A stretch of DNA of 14,616 bases from Prevotellaceae bacterium. Its GTDB lineage: Bacteria > Bacteroidota > Bacteroidia > Bacteroidales > UBA932. The notes below the pieces were generated by a model, which did not search any database, was not told the origin of the DNA, and was given only the letters and a program-made list of their open reading frames with translations. The position numbers were made by a program, and so were the translations under genes. Shown here in pieces: positions 1 to 14,616 of this stretch (position 1 is its first letter; each line of letters begins with the position of its first letter). The stretch is from the NCBI GenBank assembly GCA_031268055.1, contig JAIRXY010000092.1:1-14616 (forward strand), written 5' to 3'.

Positions 1-13
1 TAATTAACGCCCC

Positions 14-33: not shown

Positions 34-34
34 C

Positions 35-71: not shown

Positions 72-125
72 GATATGGCTACTTTGAGTGGTGGGCAATT
101 TTTTTCTTTCATTTAAAAAAATATT

Positions 126-133: not shown

Positions 134-163
134 CAAATCATTACCAACTTAATTTTTGCCAAT

Positions 164-622
164 ATGAAAAAATTATTCTACCTCGCCGCTATTGTCGCGA
201 TAATGTTGATGACTATTATCGCATGTAATGATACTAACAATTCCGAGCAAGAGCAAGAGCAACCCCCTCCTGAGGAAATTCAGGATTACACCAGCTTTAT
301 TATAAAATTAGAAAATTACAGAATACCTTTGCCTAACGTCGTGAGCGGATATTTTGACAAAAAAGGTTACTGCTGGAAAATTGCCGAACACGGGATATTA
401 TTAGCAGGGCAGGAAACTGAAGAAACAATTATAACAATTAACGTGGATAGTGTTTATATCTTTAGCGATTACCTTTCAGTTGTTATTGACGATTACCTTT
501 CAGTTATTAGGCTTAAGGATCCATTTGTTATCAGAAAAAACAGAAAAAATATATTTAATATAAGCGGAGGCCCTTTAGCCATACACGTAAATAAACAAGA
601 TTCTTTACAGTATCCGCAGTAG
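164..622 (+). CDS. Predicted lipoprotein, AT-rich accessory (moron-like) gene
   Basis: This 152-residue protein is the only + strand gene. It begins MKKLF, has a hydrophobic stretch (residues 4-19) and the lipobox-like motif IIAC with Cys21, so it should be exported, lipidated and membrane-anchored. A flexible acidic linker follows (EQEQEQPPPEE, about residues 28-38), then about 110 residues that I do not recognise. The position +2 to +5 region after Cys (NDTN) is only weakly like a Bacteroidetes surface-export signal. ATG at 164 is chosen because it gives a normal signal peptide and lies just downstream of the promoter; the leader is A/T-rich with no Shine-Dalgarno. The gene converges on the tail-fibre gene with abutting stops. 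GC is about 30% by hand count in three sampled 60-base lines. A role in superinfection exclusion or lysogenic conversion is inference from position only. Confidence 0.85.
   Translation: MKKLFYLAAIVAIMLMTIIACNDTNNSEQEQEQPPPEEIQDYTSFIIKLENYRIPLPNVVSGYFDKKGYCWKIAEHGILLAGQETEETIITINVDSVYIFSDYLSVVIDDYLSVIRLKDPFVIRKNRKNIFNISGGPLAIHVNKQDSLQYPQ
466..513 (+). repeat. In-frame 24-bp tandem duplication in the lipoprotein gene
   Basis: CGATTACCTTTCAGTT occurs at 466-481 and again at 490-505, a 24-bp period (8 codons). The protein therefore reads DYLSVVID then DYLSVIRL. The second halves of the two units have diverged, suggesting an older duplication of one beta-strand-like segment. Confidence 0.75.
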
Positions 623-3600
623 CTATATGGCAACACACAATATGTTTCCATTTCTATATAGCGTCCCTGCCGAAAGCCCATTATTTGATGTTGGCAAATT
701 ACTAAACACAACTCCACGGTCAACTGCTAATGAACCCACCCTTGTTGATGGGCCAATATTTGCCAAAATTGTTCCATATGGGTCATAGTATATAAGATTG
801 TCTGTTGAAAGGTTAAATAATGGGATAGTTTTTCCATTGCTATTAATACTATAGTATGAAATTATACCATTTTCTTTCATTTCAAAGTAGTATGTTCCGT
901 AATACGGACTGACGTTTTCCAAACTTTTAATTAAAATATTTCTCAAATAACCTGATGTAGCGTTGATTTCACCGGTAAACTTTCCACTTGTAGCGTTGAT
1001 TTCACCGGTAATCTTAGCATTTGACGCTACGAGCTCGCCATTTTGCGTTACTCGAAACGGTGCGGCAGCCCTGCTCTCCTTGGAACCCCCCGCCCAAATG
1101 CGCACTTGGTCATCCCCTCTACCCTCGCCGGTAATCCCCGCCAAAATACTGCCACCTGACCCCCCTCCGGCAAGCTGTATGGTTCCGGAGGTTATGAGGC
1201 CGCCTTCAATTACCGTTTTGGTATTGTCGTAGCTCACGGCTACTGCCCAATCACCTGCATTGTAGCTGCCCGAGGCTCTTGCATTAATGCACCAGCGCAG
1301 GATCTCTCCGTTTGGCCACAAATCCCCAACGTCATACGGCGTAGTTGGTGTCGACACAAATACGCGCCGCTTGCCGTCGGCGGCATCCTTGGCTTGGCCG
1401 GCCAGCACCAGCGCTTTGGTAGCGGCCGAGTCTGCCATCAGCGTCCAGCTGTAGGCGCTGCCTGCATCCTTTGTAAACCGCCACGATTGGCCGCTATCCA
1501 AGTTGGTGAACGTATCGTCCAGATGGGCTTCTTTGAGCGCCGCCGTTGTCCAGTCCGATGCGGGGGCGTTGGTCAGGTCCGGGTCGTAGTGGTAAAACCA
1601 CGATTCTATGGCGTTGTCTATTTGCTCCTGCAGCCGCTCCAGCGCGCCGGGTAGCGCGTTGTCGAGGTAATTTACGGCGTCGTCGTAGGGCGACAGGTTG
1701 GGCTTGTCCGCTATGTTGTTGTAGCCGGATGAGCCTGAATAGAAAGTAGCCTTTCCTGCAATTTCGATTCCATCTGGGCTGTCAAGGTCGATATAACCCG
1801 GTCCGCCGCCGCTGCTTTCAATTCTTCCCGTTTTGAGAAAGCGCCCGTTTATGGTGCTGCTCCCGTAGGTAAGGGAAACGAGGCGCGCGGGCCGCCCCCC
1901 TCCGTCATCCGTCACCACGCTGTTCAAAACGCCTACCCAAAACGTGTAGTATCCGGCTTCGCCGTCTACCTTTCGCTGGTTGGTATCCAAGATTATGCTG
2001 CCTGCGCTTCCGCTCCTTTGGCAGCGGGCGTAAATGTAGTACGCGGCGCTGTCTACCAGCTGGCTATACTCCACGGCGGCAATAGTCCACGCTCTGATGG
2101 TTGGCTCAATGGTAGCGTGCACAAGGCTTCCGCCGCTTATGCGTATATAGCTGGGGTTGCTCTGGTAGTTTGGCTCAAACATAACGCCCTGCAGGGCAAA
2201 CTGCATGGACTTTGCGCCTACCTGTAGCATGCCGGTTTCTATGCTCAGCGGCTTTATCTTGCTGCTGTAGTAGTCTCCGTCGGGGTCAAAGGTCATCGCC
2301 AGCACATCTTGGCTGGCGCGCCAGCTGCGGCGCGCCCTCGCGGGGTCGGCAAGGTTGTTTGTTTCCACTATCCGGTTGAGATTCCGTATGTTGTTCAGCT
2401 GCCGGATGTACGCGGTTTTGGTGACGCTGTCGCTCAGGGTAATGGCGTACTTGTAGGGCTGCATCAGGTCGCGGGTGAGCGCCGTAATCCTTACGGACTT
2501 GCTTACGCCTACGTCTTCGTCCTGCACCGGTATGTGGTCGCCCACGAGGAAAAGGTTTGGCACGGCCAGCTTTCCGCCAAACTGCGCTATGAAGCTTTCG
2601 TCAATGGTTAGCCCGTACTGCACCCGCGGCTGGCTGTGCTGCTCGTAGTAGGCCTGCGCTTCCTCGTAGAGCTTTTGCTCGGCTTCTGCTACGTAAGCGT
2701 CAGGGAGGTTTATGTCTACGAAGAAGTACTTGTCGCCGGGCGCCAGCTGAAAGGCTGCGCTCGTTTGGCTCGGAAACCATTCGCCCGTTTCGTCCTGAAA
2801 CGGAATGAGCTTAAACGCTTGGCTTTGCCCGCTCCACGCGCTCACAGCGTCTCTCTCTATCTCAAATTCGTACCCTGCCAAATTTCCGCTGTTGAAGTGT
2901 ACCTTTGCGTTTACGCCGCTTATCAGCCACTTTGTGCCGTTGGCGTCCGATTCTTTTAAGTCAAAGGGCATATTGTTGTCCCTGAACGTCAAGTAGTCTA
3001 CTACTTCATCTACCTTTCCGTAGCGGTTGGGAAAAATATCGTCAAAGTCCTTTTTGTTTTCCTTTAGCCCAAAGCGGGCTACGGCATCGCTGCTCTGAAT
3101 GTAGGAGGCGTTCTTGTTTTTTCCCGGCAGGCACAGCTTTGCGCTGTGCCTGCCGTTAAGGTAGGCGCTCTTTACGTTGCTGCTCCCGCCGTAGGCGTAC
3201 AGGCGTGTAACGATGTTCTGGGAGTTGACGTTTTGCCGGGTTAGCTCGTAAAGGCCGCCGGTGCGCCCGTAGCGAAAGGTGAAGGGAAAATCTACCCCCG
3301 CCTGCCGGATGTGCAGCGTTCGCGCTCCGTCCTTCTGCACTATTTCAAACTCCTGCTGGTATTCTTCGCAAAGGCGCTGTAGGGCGGACAGGCAGCTGTC
3401 GCCGTTAAACGTCATGGTTTTGTACTCTGTCTCGTCGGGATAGCTGCCGATTGTCCACTTGTTTGGGAAAACGCGGTTTGCGTTGTCCACAAGTATTTGC
3501 AGGAAGTCGGGCAGCGTTCCGGTAAGGCTGTCGCCTATGGTGTTGTCGGGCAACAAAAATTGCGCGTCTATCAGCTCGTACTGCACGCCTTCGAACATCA

Positions 3601-3853
3601 AATCGTAGGCAAACCGCCGCTCTCCGGTTTTCTTTATGGAGGGCAGCTGGTTTAGGGTGTAGGTTTTTCCGTACACCTCCATCGTGTCTCCCAGCGAGAA
3701 CTGTAGGGGCGTCGCGCTGCTGACGGAAACGGTCACTATGTCCTCGGCCAAAAGCGCAACGATTTGCTCGGCCTTGGTTACGGCCGATACGCTGGCCCTC
3801 GATGTTAGCAGCGTATGGCTGCCGTCCGGGTGCTTTACTATAAATTGCTCCAT
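623..3853 (-). CDS. Tail hub / tail-tip protein with C-terminal fibre and receptor-binding tip
   Basis: This 1076-residue protein is the last gene of the tail operon, 12 bases after the distal tail protein. Residues 1 to about 430 look like the tail-hub (gp27-like / prophage endopeptidase-tail) fold: it carries the typical segment around SCLSALQRLCEEYQQEFEI (about residues 153-171). About 430-730 is a linker with beta-rich segments, including YNNIADKPNLS. About 738-860 is a recurrent siphovirus fibre module: QIDNAIESWFY, ASDWTT, then DGKRRVFV and PYDVGDLW. Residues about 948-966 carry a duplicated GEINATSG unit. The last ~110 residues are encoded by AT-rich DNA and end in a pattern (NLPTSNN..LSAGTLYRNGN) seen at the C-termini of phage fibres. 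It probably forms the tail tip, contacts the receptor, and may guide DNA ejection. I see no clear peptidase catalytic motif. Hub and fibre calls are family knowledge; receptor binding is inference. Confidence 0.85.
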   Translation of the reverse strand: MEQFIVKHPDGSHTLLTSRASVSAVTKAEQIVALLAEDIVTVSVSSATPLQFSLGDTMEVYGKTYTLNQLPSIKKTGERRFAYDLMFEGVQYELIDAQFLLPDNTIGDSLTGTLPDFLQILVDNANRVFPNKWTIGSYPDETEYKTMTFNGDSCLSALQRLCEEYQQEFEIVQKDGARTLHIRQAGVDFPFTFRYGRTGGLYELTRQNVNSQNIVTRLYAYGGSSNVKSAYLNGRHSAKLCLPGKNKNASYIQSSDAVARFGLKENKKDFDDIFPNRYGKVDEVVDYLTFRDNNMPFDLKESDANGTKWLISGVNAKVHFNSGNLAGYEFEIERDAVSAWSGQSQAFKLIPFQDETGEWFPSQTSAAFQLAPGDKYFFVDINLPDAYVAEAEQKLYEEAQAYYEQHSQPRVQYGLTIDESFIAQFGGKLAVPNLFLVGDHIPVQDEDVGVSKSVRITALTRDLMQPYKYAITLSDSVTKTAYIRQLNNIRNLNRIVETNNLADPARARRSWRASQDVLAMTFDPDGDYYSSKIKPLSIETGMLQVGAKSMQFALQGVMFEPNYQSNPSYIRISGGSLVHATIEPTIRAWTIAAVEYSQLVDSAAYYIYARCQRSGSAGSIILDTNQRKVDGEAGYYTFWVGVLNSVVTDDGGGRPARLVSLTYGSSTINGRFLKTGRIESSGGGPGYIDLDSPDGIEIAGKATFYSGSSGYNNIADKPNLSPYDDAVNYLDNALPGALERLQEQIDNAIESWFYHYDPDLTNAPASDWTTAALKEAHLDDTFTNLDSGQSWRFTKDAGSAYSWTLMADSAATKALVLAGQAKDAADGKRRVFVSTPTTPYDVGDLWPNGEILRWCINARASGSYNAGDWAVAVSYDNTKTVIEGGLITSGTIQLAGGGSGGSILAGITGEGRGDDQVRIWAGGSKESRAAAPFRVTQNGELVASNAKITGEINATSGKFTGEINATSGYLRNILIKSLENVSPYYGTYYFEMKENGIISYYSINSNGKTIPLFNLSTDNLIYYDPYGTILANIGPSTRVGSLAVDRGVVFSNLPTSNNGLSAGTLYRNGNILCVAI
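956..1011 (-). repeat. 33-bp direct repeat in the fibre region
   Basis: A 23-base sequence at 956-978 recurs exactly at 989-1011, spaced by 33 bp (11 codons). It encodes two copies of GEINATSG flanked by IT.. and FT.. . Such short in-frame repeats extend fibre shafts and can change copy number. The repeat lies at the junction between the GC-rich shaft and the AT-rich tip of the tail-fibre gene. Confidence 0.85.
3125..3155 (-). repeat. Perfect 13-bp inverted repeat inside the tail hub gene
   Basis: On the minus strand CGGCAGGCACAGC and GCTGTGCCTGCCG are exact reverse complements around the 5-nt loop GCAAA. The element is fully coding (NGRHSAKLCLPG). In the mRNA it would be a strong hairpin lying immediately upstream of GGAAAAAAC. 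It is not followed by a T-run, so it is not a terminator. Confidence 0.8.
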
Positions 3854-3865
3854 TGCTGTATTACG

Positions 3866-5071
3866 CTATATTTTTGACCACACTAAAATTCCGTTTGTTG
3901 AAAATGCTGTAATTTCTTCGATAACCCCGGTGATAACCGCAAAAAACACGCCGTCTGCGCTGTAGCTGTGCGAAATTGTGACGTTTTCGCCAAAAACGTC
4001 GTAATCCTTGGCGCCATCCCCCCAGTGTATGGTGACGGACTTTGCCGTGGTGATGGTGATGGTGAGCGTTTTTGTTTCTTCGCTTATTCGCTGGTGCCGC
4101 AGCACCCTTTTCACGGGGTCAGGCTCCCTCAGCTTTAGGGTGAACTCCCCTACCATCTGCTCATCGCGCCATCGCTTGGAAACGCTCAGCCCGCTTTCGC
4201 AGTAGACCTCAAACAGGAGGGGCTTTGTTGGGTGTATGTCAATGGTCAGCCGCTGCGTTCCATCGGACTGAAACAGCTCCATGAATCGGTTGAGGCGGTT
4301 AACGAAGTCTACCTTTCCGCTGGCCAGCATCCAGCATTTGAGCTCAATTTCGCGGGCTTCTACCCGCTTTTGCGTTAGGTCTACCACCTCGCCGTGGTAG
4401 CCCGGCCAGTCGACCTTAACGGGCGGTTTTAGCTTCGGGAGGTCGAGTATGCCGCTCGATTCGGAAACGGTAACGCCAAAGTCTTTGAGGTTTACGCCCG
4501 ATATCAGGTACGATAGCCGCGCGGCGGAGCTTATCAGCTCGCCTACCTCGGCCTGCGAAAGCGCCACGCTGTACGCGCGCAAATCGTCGACCAGCCCGTA
4601 CCCATGCTCGGTGAAGTAGGCATCCTGCAAAATGGCAAACCCCGTTGGCTGCACCGGCAGGGCTACCGTATCGATTAGCTGCCCGTTGAGGTATATGCGG
4701 ACGGTAAGCCCCGACTTTGTAACCGCAACGTGGTGCCAGCCGCTGAATATCCTTATCCATCTTTCTCTAAAGCCGTTTACGTCGCTCCACGCAAACCAGA
4801 ATCCCAGCATTTTTCCGGTAAACCCGTCCTGCGATTCGCCGGGCATAAGCCACGCGGCTACCGTGAAGCTGCCGGAAACGGGGATTAGATTTTTCGGTAT
4901 TTGGCAGTATCCGCTGCCGTTAAACTCTATGCAGCTGCCCCTTCGCCCGGCAACAAACTTGCTGCTCACCACTGCGCCGTCGGCGCGGCTCGGCGAGTAG
5001 TCGTATGCTACCGGGGAGCGCTCCGGCTCATCAAAGGGCATGTTCAAAATCATGCTGCTGTCGGCTGCCAT
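3866..5071 (-). CDS. Distal tail protein (Dit-like) with N-terminal LamG and C-terminal PKD-like domain
   Basis: This 401-residue protein shows three parts. Residues about 8-180 form a LamG/concanavalin-like domain, with the typical GWHHVAVTKSG and RIYLNGQL (111-131) and the closing motif VDDLRAYSVALSQAEV (161-176). Residues about 185-318 match the Dit baseplate-ring pattern: GVNLKDFGVTVSESSGILDLP, then REIELKCWMLA (240-250). Residues about 333-383 look PKD-like, with WGDG (350-353) and ISHSYSADGVFFAVITG (366-382). Dit rings join the tail tube to the hub protein encoded next; the LamG and PKD parts may bind host surface glycans or proteins. The ATG at 5071 lies 41 bases inside the preceding gene and follows an A-rich leader; ATG at 5053 is an alternative. 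Baseplate role is family knowledge; carbohydrate binding is inference. Confidence 0.82.
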   Translation of the reverse strand: MAADSSMILNMPFDEPERSPVAYDYSPSRADGAVVSSKFVAGRRGSCIEFNGSGYCQIPKNLIPVSGSFTVAAWLMPGESQDGFTGKMLGFWFAWSDVNGFRERWIRIFSGWHHVAVTKSGLTVRIYLNGQLIDTVALPVQPTGFAILQDAYFTEHGYGLVDDLRAYSVALSQAEVGELISSAARLSYLISGVNLKDFGVTVSESSGILDLPKLKPPVKVDWPGYHGEVVDLTQKRVEAREIELKCWMLASGKVDFVNRLNRFMELFQSDGTQRLTIDIHPTKPLLFEVYCESGLSVSKRWRDEQMVGEFTLKLREPDPVKRVLRHQRISEETKTLTITITTAKSVTIHWGDGAKDYDVFGENVTISHSYSADGVFFAVITGVIEEITAFSTNGILVWSKI

Positions 5072-5591
5072 TTTTGTATGTTTTTGATTGTTTGCGAATG
5101 ATTTTTACTTTTGCGCCATCCAACTCTGATGATGCAACGCTCCCGCCGTATTGGTTTACGCAAATTTTGGCGTTGCCTTTTGCCGCTACCTCAACCTGCG
5201 CGCCATCGAATACATCAACCATGACAAAGGCGCTGCCGGAGGCCGTAACGCTCAGCTTGGTATTGTGCTTCACAAAAACCTGCCCAACGGCGTAACCCGT
5301 ATACGTTGCCGCTCCTTGGCACTGGCCAAGGGCGACCACGTATTCGAAGTTTTCCGCCTGTATCTGCTCGCTTTGAAATATCCCGTGCTGCTGGCGGATT
5401 CCGTCAAACTGCCGAAAAAGCCGGGGCGACGGGTAACCCTCGGAAATACAAAAGTCTATCCCCTTGAGAAACATTTTTATGAGGGCGTGCTTGTCCTCGG
5501 TATGCAGCAGCTGGCTGTACCACTCCGCGCATACTCCTTTTTTCTTTGCTTCCTCAGCTAACTCTTTATTCAGCTTCATACAATTATTCAT
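5031..5591 (-). CDS. Conserved phage tail-region protein of unknown function, beta-solenoid-like C-terminal half
   Basis: This 186-residue protein sits between the tape measure and the distal tail protein, where I recall similar proteins in many Bacteroidetes phages. Residues 1 to about 80 are mostly helical and charged (KLNKELAEEAKKKGVCAEW; KGIDFCISEGYPSPRLF). Residues about 95-165 are a run of short beta-type repeats, for example GQVFVKHNTKLSVTASG, then SAFVMVDVFDGAQVEVAAKG, then NAKICVNQYGGSV. These alternate hydrophobic and Gly/Asp/Asn turns like a small beta-helix. It overlaps the tape-measure stop by 8 bases (ATGAATAA); a second ATG at 5579 (MKLNKE) is equally plausible. Its 3' end overlaps the next gene by 41 bases. 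Position suggests a tail-tip or tail-assembly role, but no function can be assigned from sequence. Confidence 0.8.
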   Translation of the reverse strand: MNNCMKLNKELAEEAKKKGVCAEWYSQLLHTEDKHALIKMFLKGIDFCISEGYPSPRLFRQFDGIRQQHGIFQSEQIQAENFEYVVALGQCQGAATYTGYAVGQVFVKHNTKLSVTASGSAFVMVDVFDGAQVEVAAKGNAKICVNQYGGSVASSELDGAKVKIIRKQSKTYKNGSRQQHDFEHAL

Positions 5592-8500
5592 CTGTTCCTT
5601 GCGCCCGCGACGGGTCGTAAGGCCTGTTACTTATTTTTCCATCGATGCTCTCTAAATGCCGTCCGGCCTTGCTTGTGTTGCTGTCAATGTTTGCCAGGTG
5701 AAGCAGCTGCTGCCTGATTAGCTCTGTTGCATCGCGCTGGCTAATCATTGCGCTATTCATGTATCCTGCCAAAACATTAATTTCTTCTTGGCTTGCACCC
5801 TTAATTGCGCCGGAAAGGCTGACTTTGGAGCTATCCTGCGTTCCGAGAAAAAGCTTTTTTACTTCTTCCGGCAGCTTTTCAAAATCCTTTGCAAAAGATG
5901 CTGTCAGGCTATTTAGCTCAGAAGAAAAATTGACGATGGAGCTCGTTACTGCGCCAAACCCCTTAAAGTTACCTTCATTATCTACCCACTCCTTTGAGTA
6001 TTTATCCAGCACGCTTCCGATTGGCTTTTGCAGCAGCTCTTGAATTAGCATGTTTCGGGCAATTTTTGAAACAATCTCGTTTACCGAATTGCCCCACGCC
6101 TGCGCCGCATTTTCTCCCTTGGAGAAAGCCGTAATAAAGGCATTGCCCAGCTGGTCTGCGATAGCTTTTGCATCTGTAGAAATGATGCTGCTTACCATAT
6201 CATCCATCATATCTTCTATTGCGTTCCCTAATGCTTCTACCTGCGCTTCGTACTCTTTCGCCTTGCTTTCGTCGCCTTTCTTTTTTGACCTTTCGTCATC
6301 CGCCATTTGCAGCAGCTCCAGCCGTTGCTGCTTCATGTTGTCAATGGAGGCTTTTTGTTTTTTGTAAACATCATCGCCCAGGGATTTTTCAACAGCGCGC
6401 TCAAGCTGGGCGTATGCACGCTCTAAATCGTTAACCGCCTCGGCGTGCTTTTGGATGTTTTTTTCTATGTCCTTATCGTGTATTTTGTTGAGCGTTGCGA
6501 GTAGCTTAAACGGCATGGAAATAGCGTCGGAAATTGCGCCCATTACATTTCCGCTTTTAAGGTTTTCCCATCCGCTCATGGCGGTTTCATTTACGGCGTT
6601 TATCGTGTCTGCCCAGTCGCCCAAAGTGTCGGCGGCATCGGAGTTGCCTATGCTGTCTTGATATTCGGCTATGGTTTTTAGCGTGCTCGAAATAGCCGCC
6701 AGTGTTTGATACACCCCTTTTATAATGGCGTCTACAATTGCCAACGTGCTGGCTGCCCCGCCTGCCGCCCCTTGTGCACCCTGCGCCGCTTCGCCCATGT
6801 TGCCCGCCGCTTCGCCGGAATCCCCGGCTATACTTGCCATATCTCCCTTTGCGCCGGAAAACATCGTTTTGAAGCCTTCTACCTTACTTTGAAAGTCCCC
6901 TTCACCAAACATCATGTTCATAAACCCGCCTCCCTTGCCATTACCGAAAGCGGCTTCTATGCCGCGCCCTTTATATGCGCTGTCGGCCTGCTGGTTTATT
7001 TCTTTAATGAGCTGCTTGTACTGCTCCGCGGTTATTTTTCCGGCTTCATAAGCGGCTTTCATCATTGCAAGCAGAACGTTGCGGGTATTCTCTAACGTTT
7101 TGATTGAAATATCCGAAATATCCCCGAAAAATTCTTGATACTGCTTCGTTTCTTTTGAAATTTCCAAGTCCCGTTCACCCTCCAGCTTTTTTGCCACGTC
7201 TTCGTTGCCGGCAGCCCGCGCCGCGCCGATTATCTTTGCGTACTCTTTGGTGATTTGCAGCTTCTTTTGTTCGTATGTACCGTAGCGATAAATTGATTCG
7301 ATGTTTACCTGCTCCAGCTCTGCAAAGCTCTCAATATGAGCATCGTGCATTTTTCCGTACAGCGCTATCAAATCGTTTATTTTTTTCTTTTCTTCCTCCG
7401 TTTCGGCTTTGTTGGCGAGCTTTTGTATGGAGCTTATTTTGCTGCTATAGGCAATTTCTAAGTTTATCTTTTTATCAAGATAATCGGTATACTGCATTAG
7501 CGCCTCGCGCGCTTCTTTTTCGGCTTCTTTTACAACATCTTCCTCCTGCTTACCTAACGTTTCAATTTTTTGCTCCCTCAGCGGATCGTCGCTTTTCAGC
7601 GCATCGCGCATTTCCTGTATGGTTTTCAGCCGCGCCATTATGACTTGAGAATCGCTAAGCTGCTTTTGCAGGTTTTTTTCCCACTCGCTCATTACGGTTT
7701 TGCTCGATTCGCTCTGCATGGCCGTTGTGAGCTTGCGGAGGTTTTCTACTTGCGCTGCCGTTATTTTGCCCTCGCTCTGCACCTGCTGCAAGGCTGCTAT
7801 TTCGCTGCTCAAGTACTCTTTGTAGCTTCCGCCGCCTTTGAGCAGCTCGGAAAATTGCGCTTTTGCGGCATTTCTTACGCTTTCGTCAACGGAGTTTATC
7901 CACTTGAGGTATTCTTGGTAGGCTTTTTTCTTTTCCTCCAATTCCTTTAAAAACGGGTCGGATTCCTTGCTTTTTTTGCTCTTGACAGAACGCAACAAAT
8001 CCATTTTGGCGAGTAGCTCTTCTTGCTCCCGTATCTGTTTTGCTAAGCTATTGCGCTCCAAATCGCTACCGGCATTTTTGTATTTTTCTTTTAGCTCGCT
8101 GATTGCTTTTTCCAGCGCGGCAATGCTACCTTCCGTTATGTTGCTTGCCGATTGCCCTATTTTGGCTAAAATTTCCTGCTCTCTTTCGGTATATTCTGCC
8201 GCCTGTTCAAATAAATCATTCGCCTCCTTCTCTAATTTATTCTTTTCTTTTTCAATATTTTGATACCTGAAATTGGGTATCATTTCCCACTCCACAGGAG
8301 CTCCGTTGACTGATTTTGTAACCGCTTTTACCTCTTTTGGCGTAGCTTCTAACTCTTGCTGCTTTATGTATGCATTTTTATATTTTTCGCTGGCCAATTC
8401 AGTAGCAGCCAGCGCTTTTGCCTTTAAAATCTGCGCCTCTACAAAATCCTTTTTATTGTCAATAAGCAGCTTTTCGGCTTCGGCTACATTTTTCACAGAA

Positions 8501-9621
8501 ACGCCCAGCGAGTTGAACTTATCCTTATTGTTGTCAATAAATTTTTCCTTTTCCTTTATGTCATCCCCTAACTTTGCCCATGCCAATGACAGCTGCTTAA
8601 TAGTTGATATTGGCTTAATGGATGTTTCGGCAACCGCTTTATTAAATTCTTCTGTTGCTTTTTTTGCTTCTTTTTGCTTGCTTACGTATTTTGAAATTAA
8701 GCCTATTACTACAGGAATTGCAACGCCCAATCCGAGCGTTAGCGTTCCATAGAGCGCCCGCGCTGCAATTCGTGCGGTGTTTGCGGACACTCCAAGCTTA
8801 ATCAGCGCTTTTCCGGCGGTTAGCACAGCGGCAGAGTAGGCTGATTGCGCTTTTGTCAATACCGTAAGCCTGAAAGCGGATGTTTGGTGAAGCGTTGCGC
8901 TTACTGCCTGCAACCCCATTGTTATTGACATGAGGCTTTGGACTTTAAGCATTATTTTTTGCAAATCTTCGTTCTTCTCTGCAAACAGCCCCATTGCGCC
9001 TTGCGCAGCAGTAAAGGCGCCCGAAACGCCCGACAAGCCGGATACAAGCCCCTGTAGCGTAGCCCCCTTTACGCTGGTTAACGTTTTGATTTGCTGGTTG
9101 GTGGTGTATATTGCACTTGTTAATCGTTCGGCTTCTTTTGTTAGTCGGTCAAAATCCGCTGCGTTTTGGGCGGTGCGCGGGCCTAACTGCATTAATTCGT
9201 TTTTCACGTTCAGTACTTGTGTCCTGAAGCGCGTTTGCGCGTTGGTGGCGTTATCGAACTTCGCTTTAGTATCGCCAAGTTTTTCGTTGTACAGGTTTAT
9301 TTGCCGTTCCGCTTCTGCAATTTCCTGCGAAATTTTGTTGAATTCGCCTACTAAGGCTTTATTCGGAGCTCCCCATTTGGATGCGCTATCCATTATTTTC
9401 TGTAGGGCGTATTGCTGTGATTTAAGAGTTTGCAGCTTATTTGTTAGGGCATCAACGGCTTCAGAGGCCTTTTTAAAGGCATCTTCATACACATCCCCGC
9501 TATTGATGGTTAGCGAGGTGAAAGATTTTATAAGGTCTCCTGTTGTTTTAAGCCCTTGCTCCATTTTTCCTGTCTCAAGCAAGGCCTCAAATGATATTGC
9601 CCCTCCTTGTATTACATTCAT
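5584..9621 (-). CDS. Tail tape-measure protein
   Basis: At 1345 residues this is the largest gene here, placed right after the tail chaperones as in other siphoviruses. It is largely Lys/Glu/Ala-rich helix and predicted coiled coil (about 45-180 and 330-860). It has hydrophobic segments about 185-215 and 291-310 (LTLGLGVAIPVVIGLI), a Gly/Ala-rich stretch about 925-960, and another hydrophobic segment about 950-980. Such segments are typical of tape measures, which fill the tail tube, set its length and leave during DNA ejection. At roughly 1.5 angstrom per residue the tail would be about 200 nm (inference). I see no lysozyme, CHAP or M23 motif, so it may lack a muralytic domain. The start ATG overlaps the upstream stop as ATGA, so it is translationally coupled. 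GC is uneven, with AT-rich patches around 8640-8700. Confidence 0.93.
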   Translation of the reverse strand: MNVIQGGAISFEALLETGKMEQGLKTTGDLIKSFTSLTINSGDVYEDAFKKASEAVDALTNKLQTLKSQQYALQKIMDSASKWGAPNKALVGEFNKISQEIAEAERQINLYNEKLGDTKAKFDNATNAQTRFRTQVLNVKNELMQLGPRTAQNAADFDRLTKEAERLTSAIYTTNQQIKTLTSVKGATLQGLVSGLSGVSGAFTAAQGAMGLFAEKNEDLQKIMLKVQSLMSITMGLQAVSATLHQTSAFRLTVLTKAQSAYSAAVLTAGKALIKLGVSANTARIAARALYGTLTLGLGVAIPVVIGLISKYVSKQKEAKKATEEFNKAVAETSIKPISTIKQLSLAWAKLGDDIKEKEKFIDNNKDKFNSLGVSVKNVAEAEKLLIDNKKDFVEAQILKAKALAATELASEKYKNAYIKQQELEATPKEVKAVTKSVNGAPVEWEMIPNFRYQNIEKEKNKLEKEANDLFEQAAEYTEREQEILAKIGQSASNITEGSIAALEKAISELKEKYKNAGSDLERNSLAKQIREQEELLAKMDLLRSVKSKKSKESDPFLKELEEKKKAYQEYLKWINSVDESVRNAAKAQFSELLKGGGSYKEYLSSEIAALQQVQSEGKITAAQVENLRKLTTAMQSESSKTVMSEWEKNLQKQLSDSQVIMARLKTIQEMRDALKSDDPLREQKIETLGKQEEDVVKEAEKEAREALMQYTDYLDKKINLEIAYSSKISSIQKLANKAETEEEKKKINDLIALYGKMHDAHIESFAELEQVNIESIYRYGTYEQKKLQITKEYAKIIGAARAAGNEDVAKKLEGERDLEISKETKQYQEFFGDISDISIKTLENTRNVLLAMMKAAYEAGKITAEQYKQLIKEINQQADSAYKGRGIEAAFGNGKGGGFMNMMFGEGDFQSKVEGFKTMFSGAKGDMASIAGDSGEAAGNMGEAAQGAQGAAGGAASTLAIVDAIIKGVYQTLAAISSTLKTIAEYQDSIGNSDAADTLGDWADTINAVNETAMSGWENLKSGNVMGAISDAISMPFKLLATLNKIHDKDIEKNIQKHAEAVNDLERAYAQLERAVEKSLGDDVYKKQKASIDNMKQQRLELLQMADDERSKKKGDESKAKEYEAQVEALGNAIEDMMDDMVSSIISTDAKAIADQLGNAFITAFSKGENAAQAWGNSVNEIVSKIARNMLIQELLQKPIGSVLDKYSKEWVDNEGNFKGFGAVTSSIVNFSSELNSLTASFAKDFEKLPEEVKKLFLGTQDSSKVSLSGAIKGASQEEINVLAGYMNSAMISQRDATELIRQQLLHLANIDSNTSKAGRHLESIDGKISNRPYDPSRAQGTDE

Positions 9622-9803
9622 CGGTAAAACTTGCTTATTGTGTTCAAAACTTCGTCTGCATTTTCGTTTGTTATTGCTATTTCCTTTCCGTCTTTATCTG
9701 CATCGGCGTCTACGCTGGGCGCGTCAAGCAATATCCGCTGCACTACGCACCACGCTATTTCATGGTGCAGGTAGTCCCACGTCCATCCGAGGTGCGCGCA
9801 AAT
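9618..9803 (-). CDS. Second tail-assembly chaperone segment, -1 frame, no standard start codon
   Basis: Read in the -1 frame relative to the preceding chaperone gene, the minus strand encodes ICAHLGWTWDYLHHEIAW, then CVVQRILLDAPSVDADADK and an acidic tail ending NTISKFYR. The WTWDYLHHE...VVQRILLDAP pattern looks like a real downstream tail-chaperone product (lambda gpT-like). It stops with TGA overlapping the tape-measure ATG. The frame stays open upstream through the end of the first chaperone gene, but contains no ATG, GTG or TTG there. The coordinates given start at an ATT codon only for convenience. Most likely it is made as a -1 frameshift fusion with the upstream chaperone, as in lambda G/GT. 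Start from a non-standard codon or an inactivating mutation are alternatives. That the segment is coding is fairly secure; how it is expressed is inference. Confidence 0.65.
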   Translation of the reverse strand: MCAHLGWTWDYLHHEIAWCVVQRILLDAPSVDADADKDGKEIAITNENADEVLNTISKFYR

Positions 9804-9836
9804 CGAACCTCGGCGACCAAAAGGGCTGTCGAGCCC
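9781..9836 (-). repeat. Two consecutive hairpins at the chaperone junction
   Basis: Just after the first chaperone's TAA, GGGCT (9836-9832) pairs with AGCCC (9827-9823) around a 4-nt loop. Next, CCGAGGT (9813-9807) pairs with ACCTCGG (9793-9787) around a 13-nt loop, and the stem extends through GTC (9817-9815) with GAC (9783-9781) across a small internal loop. Both lie where a frameshift-stimulating structure would be expected, but they also lie within coding sequence, so chance cannot be excluded. Confidence 0.55.
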
Positions 9837-9838
9837 CG

Positions 9839-10420
9839 TTACTCTACACGATTCTTTCTCGTTTCGGTTGTTCTTGCGCCGCTTAGCAACCGCATAGAGG
9901 CGATAAAATCCGCAAGGTTGGAGATGCTGGTTATGGCCGAGGCCAACCCCACCAGCTGGGAGGGCTTCACTGCGTGAAAAAACAGGTCGGTAAGCCGGTC
10001 GAGCTCCTTGTCGTTGGCGCGCCGCGTTATTTTTCCGGATTTGGCAACCTCGGTAATGTAGTAGCCCTCGCCAAGCGCGGCAATGGCCACTACGCGCGCC
10101 AAGCGCCGGGCGTTGTCCTTTACCAGCCCCCTGGCCTTGGCTACTACCTCGTCGCTATTGGCCGTTAGCTCGTCGCTGTTAACGACCATCGCTAAGGAAA
10201 CATCGCTTATCCTGTCGAGCGTGGACAGCGTAGGCTGCTGTATTTCAAAGTTCATCAATTCTTCGGCGGCCTCCGTTTTACCGAGAAATCCCCTTATTCC
10301 GCCTGCGCGCCTCCGCACCTTAACGGTAACGCCAAACGCCATGCCGCGCTGCATGAGCAAATTCAGCTCGTTGCGCTCCATTTCGGCGGCTGATTTTTCC
10401 TGCTCCAAAATTTCATTCAT
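9839..10420 (-). CDS. Tail-assembly chaperone (lambda gpG-like position)
   Basis: This 193-residue protein lies between the major tail protein and the tape measure, the fixed place of tail-assembly chaperones. These coat the tape measure while tail tube subunits polymerise. The sequence shows an N-terminal helix, then FEIQQPTLSTLDRISDVS (about 57-74), a helical region rich in Ala/Arg (RLARVVAIAALGEGYYI), and the ending SMRLLSGARTTETRKNRVE. That last pattern resembles, from memory, the C-termini of Bacteroidetes phage chaperones, so the gene seems full length. It starts 102 bases after the major tail protein gene, downstream of an intrinsic terminator, which should make it less expressed than the tube protein. 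Its 3' end is overlapped by the -1 frame segment described at 9618-9803. Confidence 0.82.
   Translation of the reverse strand: MNEILEQEKSAAEMERNELNLLMQRGMAFGVTVKVRRRAGGIRGFLGKTEAAEELMNFEIQQPTLSTLDRISDVSLAMVVNSDELTANSDEVVAKARGLVKDNARRLARVVAIAALGEGYYITEVAKSGKITRRANDKELDRLTDLFFHAVKPSQLVGLASAITSISNLADFIASMRLLSGARTTETRKNRVE
9854..9857 (-). promoter_or_regulatory. Candidate A_AAG frameshift site near the end of the first chaperone gene
   Basis: In the chaperone frame the codons read ACG AGA AAG AAT. The tetramer A_AAG lets lysyl-tRNA slip back one base onto AAA, moving into the frame of the downstream WTWDYLHHE segment. There is no full X_XXY_YYZ heptamer in the last 25 codons, so this is a weak candidate. 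The nearest hairpin starts 17 bases downstream, farther than the usual 5-9 bases. Confidence 0.3.
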
Positions 10421-10450
10421 AAATCAAAGCTGCTGTTTTTAGGCCCCTGT

Positions 10451-10491
10451 AAAAAAGCCCTCCCGAAACTTTGCAATTTAAGGAGGGCTTT
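10451..10491 (-). terminator. Intrinsic terminator/attenuator between major tail protein and chaperone genes
   Basis: On the minus strand AAAGCCCTCC (10491-10482) pairs perfectly with GGAGGGCTTT (10463-10454) around an 18-nt loop, and the T-run continues to 10451. It lies 31 bases after the major tail protein stop, in the only intergenic gap of about 100 bases in the operon. It should end most transcripts after the abundant head and tube proteins and let a fraction through to the chaperone and tape-measure genes. The long loop makes partial termination likely. On the + strand it lacks a good T-run. Confidence 0.8.
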
Positions 10492-10522
10492 CGGGCTGTG
10501 AATAAATGATAACCTCTTTCCG

Positions 10523-11035
10523 CTAAGCGGCAACCACGTTCGTGGCCTTCATTTTACGCTCGCCTGCTTTTGTTGGCTGGAGCACCGTGCCGACAACATC
10601 AATCACGAAGATGTTGCTTTTGCTGAAGCTCCCGTTAATCTTGGCGACAATCTTCATGCGGGGTATGCTGAATATCAAGCCCTGCTGCGGGGTAATCTTC
10701 ACGGATTGCTCAATTACCGGCATGTTATCCGGCGCGCTCCACGTATCCACGTCGCCTGCTGTATCAACGGTTCCGCCGAGCAGCTTAGCCAGCACATTTA
10801 CGTCCGCATTCATTACCGAAAAGTTGAATGTGGTTTTTCCCGCGCGGGCAGCGCTCACCACGGGATCGTCTACTTCCTCTGCCGTAAAGTCGGTTACCGT
10901 GGGGTCTTCCTGCGTCATGGAGCAGCTGTCGGTAAGCGTGTAGCCCACCTGCGCCAAAGTTGTGCCCATTCCGCCGCTGGGGTCAACGTCGCCCATCTCA
11001 ATTTTTGACAGGCCAATTGTGTATACATTTGCCAT
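10523..11035 (-). CDS. Major tail (tube) protein
   Basis: This 170-residue protein begins MANVYTIGLSKIEMGDVDP. Its length, beta-rich character, and the placement after the tail-completion gene and before the chaperones fit the siphovirus tail-tube subunit that polymerises into hexameric rings. Conserved-looking stretches include TVTDFTAEEVDDPV (about 47-60), GKTTFNFSVMNADVNVLAKLLGG (split here as GKTTFNFSVM and NVLAKLLGG, about 66-88) and KITPQQGLIFSIPRMKIVA (about 113-131). A short A/T-rich leader separates it from the upstream gene by 20 bases. It is followed by an intrinsic terminator, in line with a need for many copies. No sheath gene accompanies it, so a contractile tail is unlikely. 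Confidence 0.85.
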   Translation of the reverse strand: MANVYTIGLSKIEMGDVDPSGGMGTTLAQVGYTLTDSCSMTQEDPTVTDFTAEEVDDPVVSAARAGKTTFNFSVMNADVNVLAKLLGGTVDTAGDVDTWSAPDNMPVIEQSVKITPQQGLIFSIPRMKIVAKINGSFSKSNIFVIDVVGTVLQPTKAGERKMKATNVVAA

Positions 11036-11055
11036 AGTAATAAAATTTATTTTTT

Positions 11056-11472
11056 TTAGTTGTTAATTCGCTGAATGTTCCATTCTATCCGTAAGTTGGT
11101 ATAGTGCTGGCAAATCACCGCTTCCTTGAGAACGGTTTCGTTGGCAACCCAAAGCGCAGCGCCGTCTACGGTGGTTGCCTCCAAAATGGAGATAACCATA
11201 TCCGTTAGCTCCCGCAGCCGCTCCCTGTTGGCTTGCCGCTGCTCCTGCCCGCCTATTCTTGTCGCCACGTCCGGCACGTAAATGTTCACGTTTGAAGTTC
11301 CTCGCTGGGGAGCGCCTCCGGTAATGGTAATGGCGCCTACGGTTATGTCCTCTTTTTCGGAGCTGTCGGGTCTGCCGGTGGTGTATATGCCGCCGGAAAT
11401 GGCGGCTACCAGCCCTGCGTTTCCGCTCAGCGCCCTAAATAGCATATCGTCCGTATCGAAGCTTGTAACCAT
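11056..11472 (-). CDS. Tail completion / tail terminator-like protein
   Basis: This protein is 138 residues from the ATG at 11472 (MVTSFDTDDMLF). An upstream in-frame ATG at 11511 would overlap the previous gene by 32 bases; the inner start, 7 bases after that gene's stop, fits the family better. The segment ISGGIYTTGRPDSSEKEDI, then ITITGGAPQRGTSNVNIYV, is characteristic of tail-completion proteins in Bacteroidetes phages as I recall them. These cap the tail tube at its head-proximal end and provide the head-attachment surface. The C-terminal half contains a helix (QANRERLRELTDMVISILEA) and ends LRIEWNIQRINN. Position between head-closure and tube genes supports the call. Confidence 0.75.
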   Translation of the reverse strand: MVTSFDTDDMLFRALSGNAGLVAAISGGIYTTGRPDSSEKEDITVGAITITGGAPQRGTSNVNIYVPDVATRIGGQEQRQANRERLRELTDMVISILEATTVDGAALWVANETVLKEAVICQHYTNLRIEWNIQRINN

Positions 11473-11479
11473 AGCGCGC

Positions 11480-11866
11480 TTAAATCCATAGCCTGCAATG
11501 CAGGCGGCCAAAATCGTACTTCATGCATTTTCCTGCGGCAACGATAGCCCCGCTTATTTTTCCCTGCCTTCTAAAATCGTCGCTCAAGAGGTTTTCCGGC
11601 GCAACCTGCTCGCGCGTTATCGCTACCTGCGTTCCCTCATTAATGCGGGGCGTTCCTTTCGGAATTTGAATAAGCGATGAGAATATAACCGCTTCGCCGC
11701 CGGAGGTGGTCACGCTGTGGCCTTTTCCGTTGGTTTCCTCGCGGCAAATGCCCATTAGCTCCCACGCGGCGGGGCTGTCCTCCCAGCTTCCCGTTTGAGG
11801 GTTTTGCGTGGCTTCTTCTGTGCGCAGGGCGTACAGGTATTGCGGATATTGGTAGTTTGCGTTCAT
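11480..11866 (-). CDS. Head closure / head-tail joining protein
   Basis: This 128-residue protein starts MNANYQYPQYLYALRTEE, immediately after the preceding stop with no spacer (TAAATG). CREETNGKGHSV (about 41-52), VIFSSLIQIPKGTPRINEG (about 60-78) and VAITRE form the small beta-barrel pattern of SPP1 gp16-type head-closure proteins known from Bacteroidetes phages. Such proteins form a ring under the connector that plugs the packaged head and receives the tail. The C-terminal KCMKYDFGRLHCRLWI ends 7 bases before the next gene. The exact family is from pattern memory; the joining role is supported by order. Confidence 0.72.
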   Translation of the reverse strand: MNANYQYPQYLYALRTEEATQNPQTGSWEDSPAAWELMGICREETNGKGHSVTTSGGEAVIFSSLIQIPKGTPRINEGTQVAITREQVAPENLLSDDFRRQGKISGAIVAAGKCMKYDFGRLHCRLWI

Positions 11867-12178
11867 TTACCAGCAGCTGCTTTTGTCTCTGATTTTAGGC
11901 GCGCTCTTCGGTACTATCCCCACCTCGGCGCATGCCTGACTATACCAAAATTTGATAGCTTCCCAATTCCAAGAAATGGAGAAACCGCCCTCGCCTACGT
12001 CTGCAAGCGGGATGAGGCTGGAAAACTCTTTGCAGAGCGCCTTTTTTGCCGTTACAGCGTTTGCCTCGGCGTTTTCGTCCGGTATCAGCGTACGCTGATT
12101 AAAGAGAATTAGCTCAACGTCTGCCGCGCCAATGGTGAAGCGCGAGGCGGTTGCGGTTATCCATTCCTTGTAGGTCAT
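11867..12178 (-). CDS. Head-tail connector (adaptor) protein
   Basis: This 103-residue, largely helical protein begins MTYKEWITATASRFTIGAAD and ends KSAPKIRDKSSCW. Between these are a helical stretch (NAVTAKKALCKEFSSLIPLADVG, shown here only in part: AVTAKKALCKEF) and EGGFSISWNWEAIKFWYSQA. Size and helical content fit the gp6/gp15-like adaptor ring that sits under the portal. The ending KIRDKSSCW resembles a conserved terminus I recall in Bacteroidetes phage connectors. It follows a 35-base gap after the small capsid-adjacent gene and abuts the head-closure gene. Function is inferred from order and fold type. Confidence 0.7.
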   Translation of the reverse strand: MTYKEWITATASRFTIGAADVELILFNQRTLIPDENAEANAVTAKKALCKEFSSLIPLADVGEGGFSISWNWEAIKFWYSQACAEVGIVPKSAPKIRDKSSCW

Positions 12179-12213
12179 GCTTGTGTTGGAGTAAAAAATT
12201 AATGGTTAATACT

Positions 12214-12501
12214 TTACTCCTTTGCAAGGTTTTCAATCCGCTCTTCGATTGCTTTCACAACCGTTTGGCGCGGCTTTTCGGCTGCCTTTTCCGCTGTGCT
12301 TTTGGCATCCTGAGGGTTTCCGCTTTCGCTTCCTTTGCCAGTTTCGGCCTCGGAATTCTCCACTTTTGCAAGCCCCATTTTCACAATGTAGGCAAGCCTT
12401 TCTTCTCCAAACGCACCGGGGAGTTCATCCCCCGGATTGTAGTGCTTGGCGATGTTGTTTCTGTCGGCAAATTCTTTTAGAACGATGTACTTTTTTTTCA
12501 T
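12214..12501 (-). CDS. Small capsid-adjacent protein of unknown function
   Basis: This 95-residue protein starts MKKKYIVLKEFADRNNIAK. Residues 1 to about 45 form a compact unit (YIVLKEFADR, YNPGDELPG, RLAYIVKMGLAKV) of a type often found next to capsid genes in Bacteroidetes phages. The remaining 50 residues are low-complexity and rich in Glu/Ala/Lys/Ser, ending in a charged helix (VVKAIEERIENLAKE). Its ATG overlaps the capsid stop codon (ATGA), so it is probably translated by coupling with the capsid gene. It might be a head accessory or assembly protein. I do not recognise a defined function. Confidence 0.75.
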   Translation of the reverse strand: MKKKYIVLKEFADRNNIAKHYNPGDELPGAFGEERLAYIVKMGLAKVENSEAETGKGSESGNPQDAKSTAEKAAEKPRQTVVKAIEERIENLAKE

Positions 12502-13595
12502 GCGCTTACGAGCTTTGCATCTATCTGATAGATTTGTTCAACGTTGCAAATAACCGGAACAACGCGCGCCTGCGAAGTGGTATGTTCGGAAAGCGAGGGC
12601 TTGTTTTCGCGATATTTTGAGACTAAAATGTAATCGTCGGCGGTTTGGTAGGAAACGCCCGCTACGGGGTGGTTTTGCTCTGCCAGGCGCGCCCACATCA
12701 AAACGCCAACTTGCGGCGTGGCGGTTAAAATAACCTTTCCCTCGCTCCACGGCGTAACGACGGTGCGTACCCCGTTTTTTTCGTTGATGATTTTTCGGTC
12801 AACAATGGTGATTTGGAATTTGTAGCGGCTGTCCGCTTTCAGGGCGGCGTTAACCTTTTCCAAGCTCGGAACGGGCACAATCGCGCTGTTGAGAAATCCG
12901 ATTGAGAAAGCGAAGAACTCCTTTACCTGCGTTGTCTTTGCGAAGCTGTCAAAGGTAACGTCATCCATGTACACGTGGGCAACTTTGTTCCCATCCGCCT
13001 TTGCCTTCTGCAAGGCTTGGCGAATATCGTCCAGCGGCTTTGCGGCTACGTCGCTCCAAGCGGCGGAAACGCCAAATTTGTTGGCGTCAAAGTATCTGTA
13101 ATCGAGGCGAACGCTCGTACCTACGTTTTCGGTGTCATCAACTGCGGCCACGCCCGTGGATAGCCCCTCCAAAAAGGTTTTTTCCATAAGCTCGAAAATG
13201 CCGGTAATAACCGTTGCCGTGTCCTGAAGCAGCTTTGCCGAAATCTCCAAATCGCTCATTTTCTGAGCAATCATGGCATCAATATCGGATAGCTGCTTTT
13301 CGTTTAGCCAAAGCTCCATGCCCGACTTTACAATATCGCCCGACGCCTTTCCCATCGACGGGCGGCGCTTGAGCGGCAATGAAGAATCCATTGCTACGTA
13401 ATCAGCAGAAACTCTCGTGTTTAACATGCTGATTGCATCCCACTTTCCGCTTGTGGAGTATTCTTTGCGGAGCATGGCTTTGAACATGTACGTCAAATCC
13501 TGCCCGCTGTTCTTTCCGTTAAGCGTTTCTATGGTTTTGACAACAACCCCCTTGAGGTATTTGTCAACTATCTGTGCGTATAAGCTACTTTCCAT
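12498..13595 (-). CDS. Major capsid protein (HK97-fold, gpE-like)
   Basis: This 365-residue protein has the length and placement of a major capsid protein, downstream of scaffold and decoration genes and upstream of connectors. The N-terminal third is helical and charged. The C-terminal part carries the pattern typical of gpE-like capsid proteins: VVTPWSEGKVILTATPQVG (about 282-300), LMWARLAEQNHPVAGVSYQ (about 302-320), DDYILVSKYRENKPSLSEHT (about 323-342), then SQARVVPVICNVEQIYQID. It forms the icosahedral shell. The gene begins 2 bases after the decoration gene stop, and its stop overlaps the next start. Recognition is by pattern; I did not align it to a reference. Confidence 0.88.
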   Translation of the reverse strand: MESSLYAQIVDKYLKGVVVKTIETLNGKNSGQDLTYMFKAMLRKEYSTSGKWDAISMLNTRVSADYVAMDSSLPLKRRPSMGKASGDIVKSGMELWLNEKQLSDIDAMIAQKMSDLEISAKLLQDTATVITGIFELMEKTFLEGLSTGVAAVDDTENVGTSVRLDYRYFDANKFGVSAAWSDVAAKPLDDIRQALQKAKADGNKVAHVYMDDVTFDSFAKTTQVKEFFAFSIGFLNSAIVPVPSLEKVNAALKADSRYKFQITIVDRKIINEKNGVRTVVTPWSEGKVILTATPQVGVLMWARLAEQNHPVAGVSYQTADDYILVSKYRENKPSLSEHTTSQARVVPVICNVEQIYQIDAKLVSA

Positions 13596-13597
13596 CG

Positions 13598-14236
13598 TTA
13601 ATCCTCCCTGAAATCAATTAAGGGCAAGGCCGCTTTTACGGCTGCCAGAATGTTACCCATAGGATACGGGGCCGCTGCCGGGTTTACCGTTCCATGTACC
13701 ATAATCCCCGCGAGGGGCCTCTTTGTTAGTATGCTTGCAATGAGAATGCCTGCATATTCGTGTCCTTCGGGCAAAGAGCCGTAACCGGCTGCGTTTACCG
13801 ATGCTACTGCTACGGAGAATTCGACGCCTCCGGCAATACCGGTAAGCACGTCTCCTGCCTGATAGCCTTTGCCGCCGTTTGCGGCTCCTATGTCCGTTAC
13901 TGCATTACCGGTAACGCCAACGTTTGCTGAGGCTCCGCTGCCGCTTCCGCCGCTCAAAGCAACTTCGAGGTAATTCCCGTCAGTGGCTCCGCTGCTGCCG
14001 CCGGTAATGGCTCCAAATGTGGCTATGGCATTATCGCCGGTAACGGGCATTGGCTTGTACTCCTTTGCCGCCGTTTCCTTGATAATGACGTGCCCCGCCT
14101 TGATGACTTCCGGAGCGAATCCGGCGGTGTCAAGGGTGCGCCCACCGCGCACGGTCAGCAAGTTATCCACGATAACGATGTTGTCGTTTCCGGTGATTAC
14201 CTCCTGTGGCTCGTTCGTTAAGTTTGCTACTGCCAT
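13598..14236 (-). CDS. Capsid decoration-like protein with an inserted Gly-rich beta module
   Basis: This 212-residue protein starts at MAVANLTNEP (ATG 14236). The open frame continues upstream, but that part overlaps the scaffold gene and looks non-coding. Residues 1 to about 65 (NIVIVDNLLTVRGGRTLD, IKAGHVIIKE, YKPMPV) and about 153-212 (SLPEGHEYAGILIAS, RPLAGIMVHGTVN, AAPYPM) read as two halves of a small head-decoration-type beta barrel. Between them, about 66-152, is a Gly/Ser/Ala-rich insert (GGSGSGASANVGVTGNAVTD, GGKGYQAGDVLTG, FSVAVASV). This resembles a module that recurs in many phage surface proteins. The barrel would bind the capsid exterior and the insert could project outward. 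The gene precedes the capsid gene by 2 bases. Decoration role is inferred from fold pattern and order. Confidence 0.72.
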   Translation of the reverse strand: MAVANLTNEPQEVITGNDNIVIVDNLLTVRGGRTLDTAGFAPEVIKAGHVIIKETAAKEYKPMPVTGDNAIATFGAITGGSSGATDGNYLEVALSGGSGSGASANVGVTGNAVTDIGAANGGKGYQAGDVLTGIAGGVEFSVAVASVNAAGYGSLPEGHEYAGILIASILTKRPLAGIMVHGTVNPAAAPYPMGNILAAVKAALPLIDFRED

Positions 14237-14286
14237 TTTTTTTGTTGAAAATTTAGTTGTTACTACTCTCTTTTTTCCAATCACGC

Positions 14287-14616
14287 TCAAATGCCCATCT
14301 TCTCCATTATGGCGCTTATTTCTTGGTCTGTGGCCTCCTTTCCGCCGCCGCTTGGGTCGGCAACAGTGGGGCGGCCGTATGCGCTCAATCCTGAGTCGGC
14401 TGCGCCTTGGTTGGCGATTTTTACGTCGGCTTCTGTTTCGGTCAAGTACTCCGTAAACGCATCTTCCGTGGCAAACGTCATTCTTGCAAAGTCTTTTAGC
14501 GCCTTGGCTTTGAAGCTTTCGTCCCTGCAATCTTTCAGCTTGTCGGTTAGGGTTTGGAGCCTTGATTTTGCCACATTTCCGGCCTCAAACGCTGCCACTT
14601 TTTCAAGTAGCGGCTT
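14287..14616 (-). CDS. Putative capsid scaffold protein, C-terminal part (5' end outside window)
   Basis: The frame is open to the right edge of the window, so only the last 109 residues are visible. A GTG at 14598 is in frame, but reading continues upstream through LLEK with no stop, so it is probably internal. The visible part is helical and charged (SRLQTLTDKLKDC, FKAKALKDFARMTF, AFTEYLTETEADVKIAN). A Gly/Ser/Pro-rich linker follows (PTVADPSGGGKEA), then a short terminal helix, DQEISAIMEKMGI. A charged helical body with a C-terminal capsid-binding helix is typical of scaffold proteins, and the location upstream of the decoration and capsid genes agrees. A protease-scaffold fusion cannot be excluded because the N-terminus is missing. 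Confidence 0.65.
   Translation of the reverse strand, partial: KPLLEKVAAFEAGNVAKSRLQTLTDKLKDCRDESFKAKALKDFARMTFATEDAFTEYLTETEADVKIANQGAADSGLSAYGRPTVADPSGGGKEATDQEISAIMEKMGI

Follow-up and report, generated by a model that had tools for sequence, protein, structure and literature searches.

Organisation of the locus

The window analysed here is a 14,616-nucleotide stretch of DNA from a Prevotellaceae bacterium (contig JAIRXY010000092.1 of assembly GCA_031268055.1, positions 1 to 14,616). On its reverse strand two overlapping open reading frames (ORFs), G and T, precede the gene for a tape measure protein; T lies in the -1 frame and has no start codon of its own. Comparison with relatives indicates that T is very probably expressed as a G-T fusion by -1 programmed frameshifting of the lambda G/GT type, at a slippery heptamer that precedes a covarying RNA stem. 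The features are as follows.

9839..10420, minus strand: gene G, 193 aa, zero frame; an ORF for a short tail-assembly-chaperone-like protein
9905..9911, minus strand: slippery heptamer G_GAT_TTT (zero-frame codons GCG GAT TTT ATC), assigned by its conservation in relatives
9621..9908, minus strand: T-frame coding segment, 96 codons from the F of FYRLYA, reached by the -1 shift
9900..9904, minus strand: spacer of 5 nt between heptamer and stem
9888..9899, minus strand: stem arm 1, CTCTATGCGGTT, assigned by covariation and a covariance-model match
9842..9853, minus strand: stem arm 2, AATCGTGTAGAG, directly before the G stop codon TAA, assigned likewise
5584..9621, minus strand: tape measure protein, an ORF with a PHROG match, whose start overlaps the T stop as ATGA

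The TAA stop of G occupies 9841-9839; 63 bases separate it from the heptamer GGATTTT, and the slip lies 22 codons before it. T ends at a TGA (9620-9618) within the ATGA shared with the tape-measure ATG at 9621. The T frame runs open from 10154. Ahead of the motif WTWDYLHHE it contains no ATG, GTG or TTG; the first of these codons is a GTG at 9743, 3' of that motif. The initial annotation had described WTWDYLHHE and VVQRILLDAP in the -1 frame after G, the ATGA overlap and the lack of an upstream start codon, and had pointed to an ATT at 9803-9801 and a GTTTTTT at 9982-9976. All of these are present. It had also placed the feature at 9618..9860 and reported that a canonical heptamer was missing; an in-phase G_GAT_TTT lies upstream of that interval, at 9911-9905.

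Relatives of G and T

Loci were collected through similarity of the T protein, not through the heptamer as a DNA word. By tblastn, the T segment had matches in 23 records of a phage collection: 18 are named Riemerella and 2 Porphyromonas, and the others are Bacteroides phage Versailles, one 'Bacteriophage sp.' and one record labelled Shigella. G had matches in 2 records of this collection. Scans with the T alignment confirmed 217 viral-contig loci, of which 80 were kept, and gave 34 genome loci; 16 of 393 genomes of the host's order match, the window's own among them. A first scan of genome contigs with G alone gave no match. The 154 records reduced to 111 distinct by key, and 107 distinct contexts were analysed. 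L135 and L150 were set aside for partial profile hits, though their sequences show GGCTTTT and CCCTTTT.

In 105 of the 107 loci the G ORF crosses the heptamer one base out of the T frame and ends 18-41 codons later. The two exceptions are L062, where the contig ends, and L126, which lacks one base; the remainder are the 105 informative loci, from which 85 representatives with less than 90% identity were drawn. Alignment A2 holds 77 of the 85 and the synonymous-codon analysis 75. Two spacing classes of the downstream stem, A3 (39) and A4 (23), account for 62 of them, and the other 23 comprise 10 with arm 2 at +63, 5 with longer loops and 8 distant sequences. For the proteins, A5 contains 45 of 84 printed G references, A6 41 of those 45, and A7 58 of 65 T rows, cut at the slip point.

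A conserved slippery heptamer

GGATTTT is present at 83 of the 107 loci, in phase for a -1 slip. Strict X_XXY_YYZ forms make up a further group (GGGTTTT 8, AAATTTT 7, AAATTTC 1, CCCTTTT 1), and a few loci lie outside the pattern even when GGA is tolerated (GTCTTTT 5, GGCTTTT 1 and the shortened form of L126). The T_TTT core is found in 105 of the 107, with T_TTC in L111. Passages of PMC11050907 term G_GAU_UUU a 'typical -1 slippery motif', with GGA a tolerated deviation from XXX, and PMC5009743 mentions the same heptamer at an umbravirus site.

Changes in the base preceding the P-site codon are synonymous in the zero frame, and this base lies 5' of the shift. It equals the first base of that codon in 81 of 85 representatives, against 17.8 expected from codon usage, and changes along with the codon (G_GAT, G_GGT, G_GCT, A_AAT, C_CCT). 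Such matching of a silent, upstream base argues for retained P-site pairing after a slip. The slip codon is TTT in 84 of 85 representatives (43.1 expected from codon usage) and the P-site codon is NNT in all 85 (35.4 expected), excesses that T-frame coding partly explains. Synonymous-codon identity at the three slip-site codons is 0.99, 1.0 and 0.97, compared with an upstream mean of 0.405 (sd 0.128, 161 positions). The average for the slip codon plus the 12 codons after it is 0.589 (12 positions), some of these positions (0.21 to 0.41) being no higher than upstream.

The shortened form occurs in Chryseobacterium sp. E1 (L126, CP078104.1), which near position 3000 reads AGTCTTT, one T fewer than the TTTT run of L122 and L125. 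Judged from its sequence, the broken frame relation may reflect a sequencing error or a decaying prophage.

T-frame coding upstream of the G stop

T-frame homology extends 5' of the G stop, as an FYxLYxI-like stretch embedded in G, in all 20 printed loci (in the window FYRLYAVAKRRKNN, 9908-9867). It recurs with variation across the wider set, with the exceptions of L150 (mis-anchored) and L062 (too short). In the T alignment A7 (58 sequences) the sole invariant residue is F1, and in the G alignment A6 (41 sequences) it is F172, encoded by the slip codon. The upstream homology and the invariant phenylalanine together suggest that the fused reading begins at the slip codon and not at the G stop, where the initial annotation had T coding begin. 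The stretch from slip to G stop is thus coded in two frames. On the same homology, reaching to FYxLY, a slip at or beside the G stop was rejected. GTTTTTT at 9982-9976 was also rejected as the slip site: conservation begins only at GGATTTT, and 11 relatives have a T frame that is closed 9-12 nt upstream of the slip.

Between its upstream stop and the slip, the T frame contains no ATG, GTG or TTG in 74 of the 105 informative loci. In 31 of the 105, CTG, ATT, ATA and ATC are missing as well, so that none of seven start-like codons occurs; 31 of the 105 do carry a T-frame ATG, GTG or TTG there. In nine loci the frame opens just 9 nt before FY, and in two others 12 nt before it, with none of the seven codons in that interval. 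The start codon that an independent gene would have upstream of the conserved coding segment is absent from the window and from those 74 loci.

Public records treat T unevenly. Fragments are annotated from internal starts at 2036-2207 (L006), 2022-2207 (L007 and L008) and 2103-2231 (L009): 186 nt in two Riemerella phages, 129 nt in Versailles and two pieces in a Porphyromonas phage. In these records the conserved first part of T is lost, and in the L011 record T is unannotated.

An RNA stem downstream of the heptamer

The arms of the stem in the window form 12 pairs, three of them G-U. Across the 85 representatives the longest ungapped stem has a mean of 9.95 bp, against 5.49 in base-shuffled sequence; it reaches at least 7 bp in 74 and 10-13 bp in 63. 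The loop is 28 or 34 nt in the two spacing classes counted. The covarying stem of the family starts 5 nt after the heptamer, within the 5-9 nt looked for, and the end of its 3' arm coincides with the G stop or lies no more than about 15 bases from it.

In ungapped alignments, standard pairs make up 88.0% of the 39-sequence class and 95.3% of the 23-sequence class, which includes the window; the classes were set by the best arm-2 pairing, so both percentages are biased towards the stem. Pairs with double changes number 6 and 5. Covariation is 0.183 and 0.236, against 0.085 and 0.139 when shuffled, a level that none of 500 shuffles attained in either class. Kinship among sequences can also produce scores above such shuffles, although according to the tool's note this seldom holds for the number of doubly changed pairs. 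Slid-partner controls score below the real stem in both classes. The stem of L118 illustrates the compensation, TTGTATCAGATT pairing opposite AATCTGATACAA. On the same trimmed alignments RNAalifold predicts 8 and 11 of the 12 pairs. It found no structure in the whole alignment of 85 sequences, probably a result of the differing spacings of the second arm, as splitting by spacing recovered the stem.

A covariance model trained on the 39-sequence class, window excluded, has a single match in the window at thresholds up to E 10, namely 9911-9842 (44 bits, E 9.8e-9), and at E 0.001 the rest of the window's genome gives no match. It matches 38 of 47 sources outside the training set. Among 395 genomes of the class, scanned with stricter filters, it matches two, the window's own and G652, whose T gene is L138; three genomes with distant T matches (G425, G455 and G683) were unmatched in that scan. 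Rfam gave no match up to E 1 in window positions 9500-10500.

One further element was considered and set aside as part of the signal.

9823..9836, minus strand: possible second hairpin GGGCT-CGAC-AGCCC, after the G stop; weak, mostly codon-constrained

Its single freely varying pair is formed in 52 of 75 sequences (0.693, against 0.578 shuffled, with 2 of 1000 shuffles as high), and the other four pairs do no better than shuffled.

Protein families, neighbouring genes and source records

G matches PHROG 15994 (E 1.3e-40), and all 58 aligned T members match PHROG 11996; both families are of unknown function. Neither protein matches any Pfam or NCBIfam family. The AF2 model of G is confident (mean pLDDT 89.5) and finds weak matches in BFVD, the best (2.4e-3) to an unnamed entry and two others, at E 0.12 and 0.16, to entries named as tail assembly chaperones. 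The model of T (mean pLDDT 67.1) was not used for fold search. The best PHROG for the tape measure protein, 21917, is unnamed; it also matches PHROG 9959, tail length tape measure protein, at E 5.1e-57.

In the Porphyromonas phage record G is flanked by the genes annotated as major tail protein and tape measure. In Riemerella phages L007 and L008 (2377-4201) an antirepressor and other opposite-strand genes follow T, and the tape measure is not directly next. The Shigella phage Henu10 record (L011, OQ791282.1, 1-4201) is 100% identical over 4,201 bases to Riemerella phage vB_RanS_PT33 (L007), and its host label looks wrong. Two genome loci, L112 and L118, come from bins titled Clostridia and Lachnospiraceae, which may reflect bin contamination or a wider host range; the other 32 genome-scan titles read as Bacteroidota by name, taxonomy being taken from titles alone.

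Discussion

We propose that G and T are joined by -1 programmed frameshifting at G_GAT_TTT, which we consider very probable from the comparison of relatives. The initial annotation had likened the arrangement to lambda G/GT. That comparison is strongly supported, with the site moved to GGATTTT at 9911-9905. Most ribosomes would finish G at its TAA, and a smaller number, holding tRNA-Asp at GAT and tRNA-Phe at TTT, would slip back one base; the Phe tRNA would re-pair perfectly (TTT to TTT), and the Asp tRNA would retain its first base pair (GAT to GGA). Reading would then continue in the -1 frame as ...NLADF-YRLYAVAKRRKNN...VTGLDSPFGRRG..., giving a G-T fusion of about 267 aa whose end overlaps the tape-measure start. 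The stem 5 nt downstream, its arms bracketing the rest of G, would probably slow the ribosome and set the rate.

Several observations weigh against this proposal. The window stem is weak: its pair probability is 0.97 when folded alone and 0.02 with 40 downstream bases added, when another predicted structure is preferred; in longer folds the best structure keeps the stem in 20 of 23 and 30 of 39 sequences, the window being among the three of 23 in which it is out-competed. Eleven of the 85 representatives have no uninterrupted 7-bp stem. Eight of these are the distant relatives (L144-L149, L151 and L153), which keep the T_TTT slip and of which only L144 matches the covariance model, weakly; they may use another stimulator. 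At G_TCT_TTT, found in four of the 85, the P-site tRNA would be expected to re-pair poorly. Counts over the representatives share ancestry and are not independent trials. Finally, the fold of G has no PDB match at E 0.001.

T might instead be a separate gene translated from a non-standard start (ATT at 9803, or an internal GTG or TTG) by reinitiation or translational coupling once G has terminated. The in-frame ATT, the fragments annotated from internal starts and the T-frame start codons found upstream of the slip in a minority of loci would fit. Residues upstream of the annotated starts (FYxLY, GLxSPxGRRG) are conserved, however, as is the T frame upstream of the ATT proposed in the initial annotation; most loci have no standard start between the T-frame stop and FY, and many lack all seven start-like codons. 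Among the loci examined, none showed a homologue as a separate ATG-started gene, the finding that the initial annotation had said would count against frameshifting. A separate gene also leaves the conserved heptamer and the stem unexplained, and we regard it as highly improbable.

Slippage of RNA polymerase on the T run, so that some mRNAs carry the shift, would yield an identical fusion, and the core of the site is indeed such a run. Runs that support transcriptional slippage are usually longer than the four T found in the window and most loci. Slippage of the polymerase accounts neither for a base that tracks the P-site codon nor for a stem at a fixed distance, and seems to us barely credible. 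A recent mutation, which the initial annotation also listed, or a sequencing error that split one gene could be imagined for the window, as its assembly is fragmented (313 contigs, 74.5% complete). The relatives refute this, since viral contigs, named phages and bacterial genomes keep the identical out-of-frame arrangement in all but two loci; we give a split gene next to no credence.

Programmed frameshifting at the heptamer would make this a system of a known kind, and the cis signal of this family is well-supported. As in lambda, two overlapping ORFs stand before the tape measure, the second in the -1 frame, with the slip near the end of the first. The lambda G/GT heptamer is GGGAAAG, whereas here it is GGATTTT. 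G and T also differ in matching no Pfam or NCBIfam family, and in the distance of 22 codons from slip to G stop, a stretch that is coded in two frames and holds a covarying stem. In the E. coli dnaX signal, too, a slippery heptamer is followed within a few bases by a stem; unlike in dnaX, the second arm here ends close to the zero-frame stop, after a loop that measures 28 or 34 nt in the two classes counted. The identical G_GAU_UUU serves in RNA viruses of plants and fungi (an umbravirus, unirnaviruses), in different viruses and genes, which implies no relationship. The 'twoonefour' slippery class named in PRFect (PMC10885494) would fit GG-A-TTTT, a match guessed from the name.

G-T frameshifting is described in PMC5009743 as widely conserved in long-tailed phages, and for a tail-chaperone cluster the GeneTack authors give 6% and 7% measured for two genes (PMC3711429). 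Among the matches listed, open-access titles and abstract openings contain no description of a frameshift or stem for the G/T family; one paper reports frameshifts in a reverse transcriptase (PMC8008677), and in the main text of a Porphyromonas gingivalis phage paper (PMC10367356) the terms 'chaperone' and 'tail assembly' were not found.

The gene order and the frameshift layout suggest a putative chaperone role by analogy with lambda, where gpG and gpGT both attach to the tape measure and the tube protein is bound by T (sections of PMC5009743). On that model G and GT, kept at a fixed ratio, would cover the tape measure and bring in the tail tube protein. We also considered that the stem might sense ribosome traffic. 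Arm 2 lies near the G stop, so a terminating ribosome would cover and melt the stem, leaving no roadblock for the following ribosome when it reaches the heptamer; with heavier ribosome loading, frameshifting would become less frequent, tuning G:GT to expression. The geometry of the stem is what suggests such a sensor, and we think it rather unlikely.

To our knowledge recoding in the Bacteroidota has been little studied. With the pairing proposed here, PHROG 15994 and 11996, so far of 'unknown function', become a probable G/GT frameshift pair across Bacteroidota phages. Their loci form a naturally varied alignment of a frameshift signal, with changes in the heptamer and compensating changes in the stem, from which one could learn what P-site mismatches are tolerated by the ribosome.

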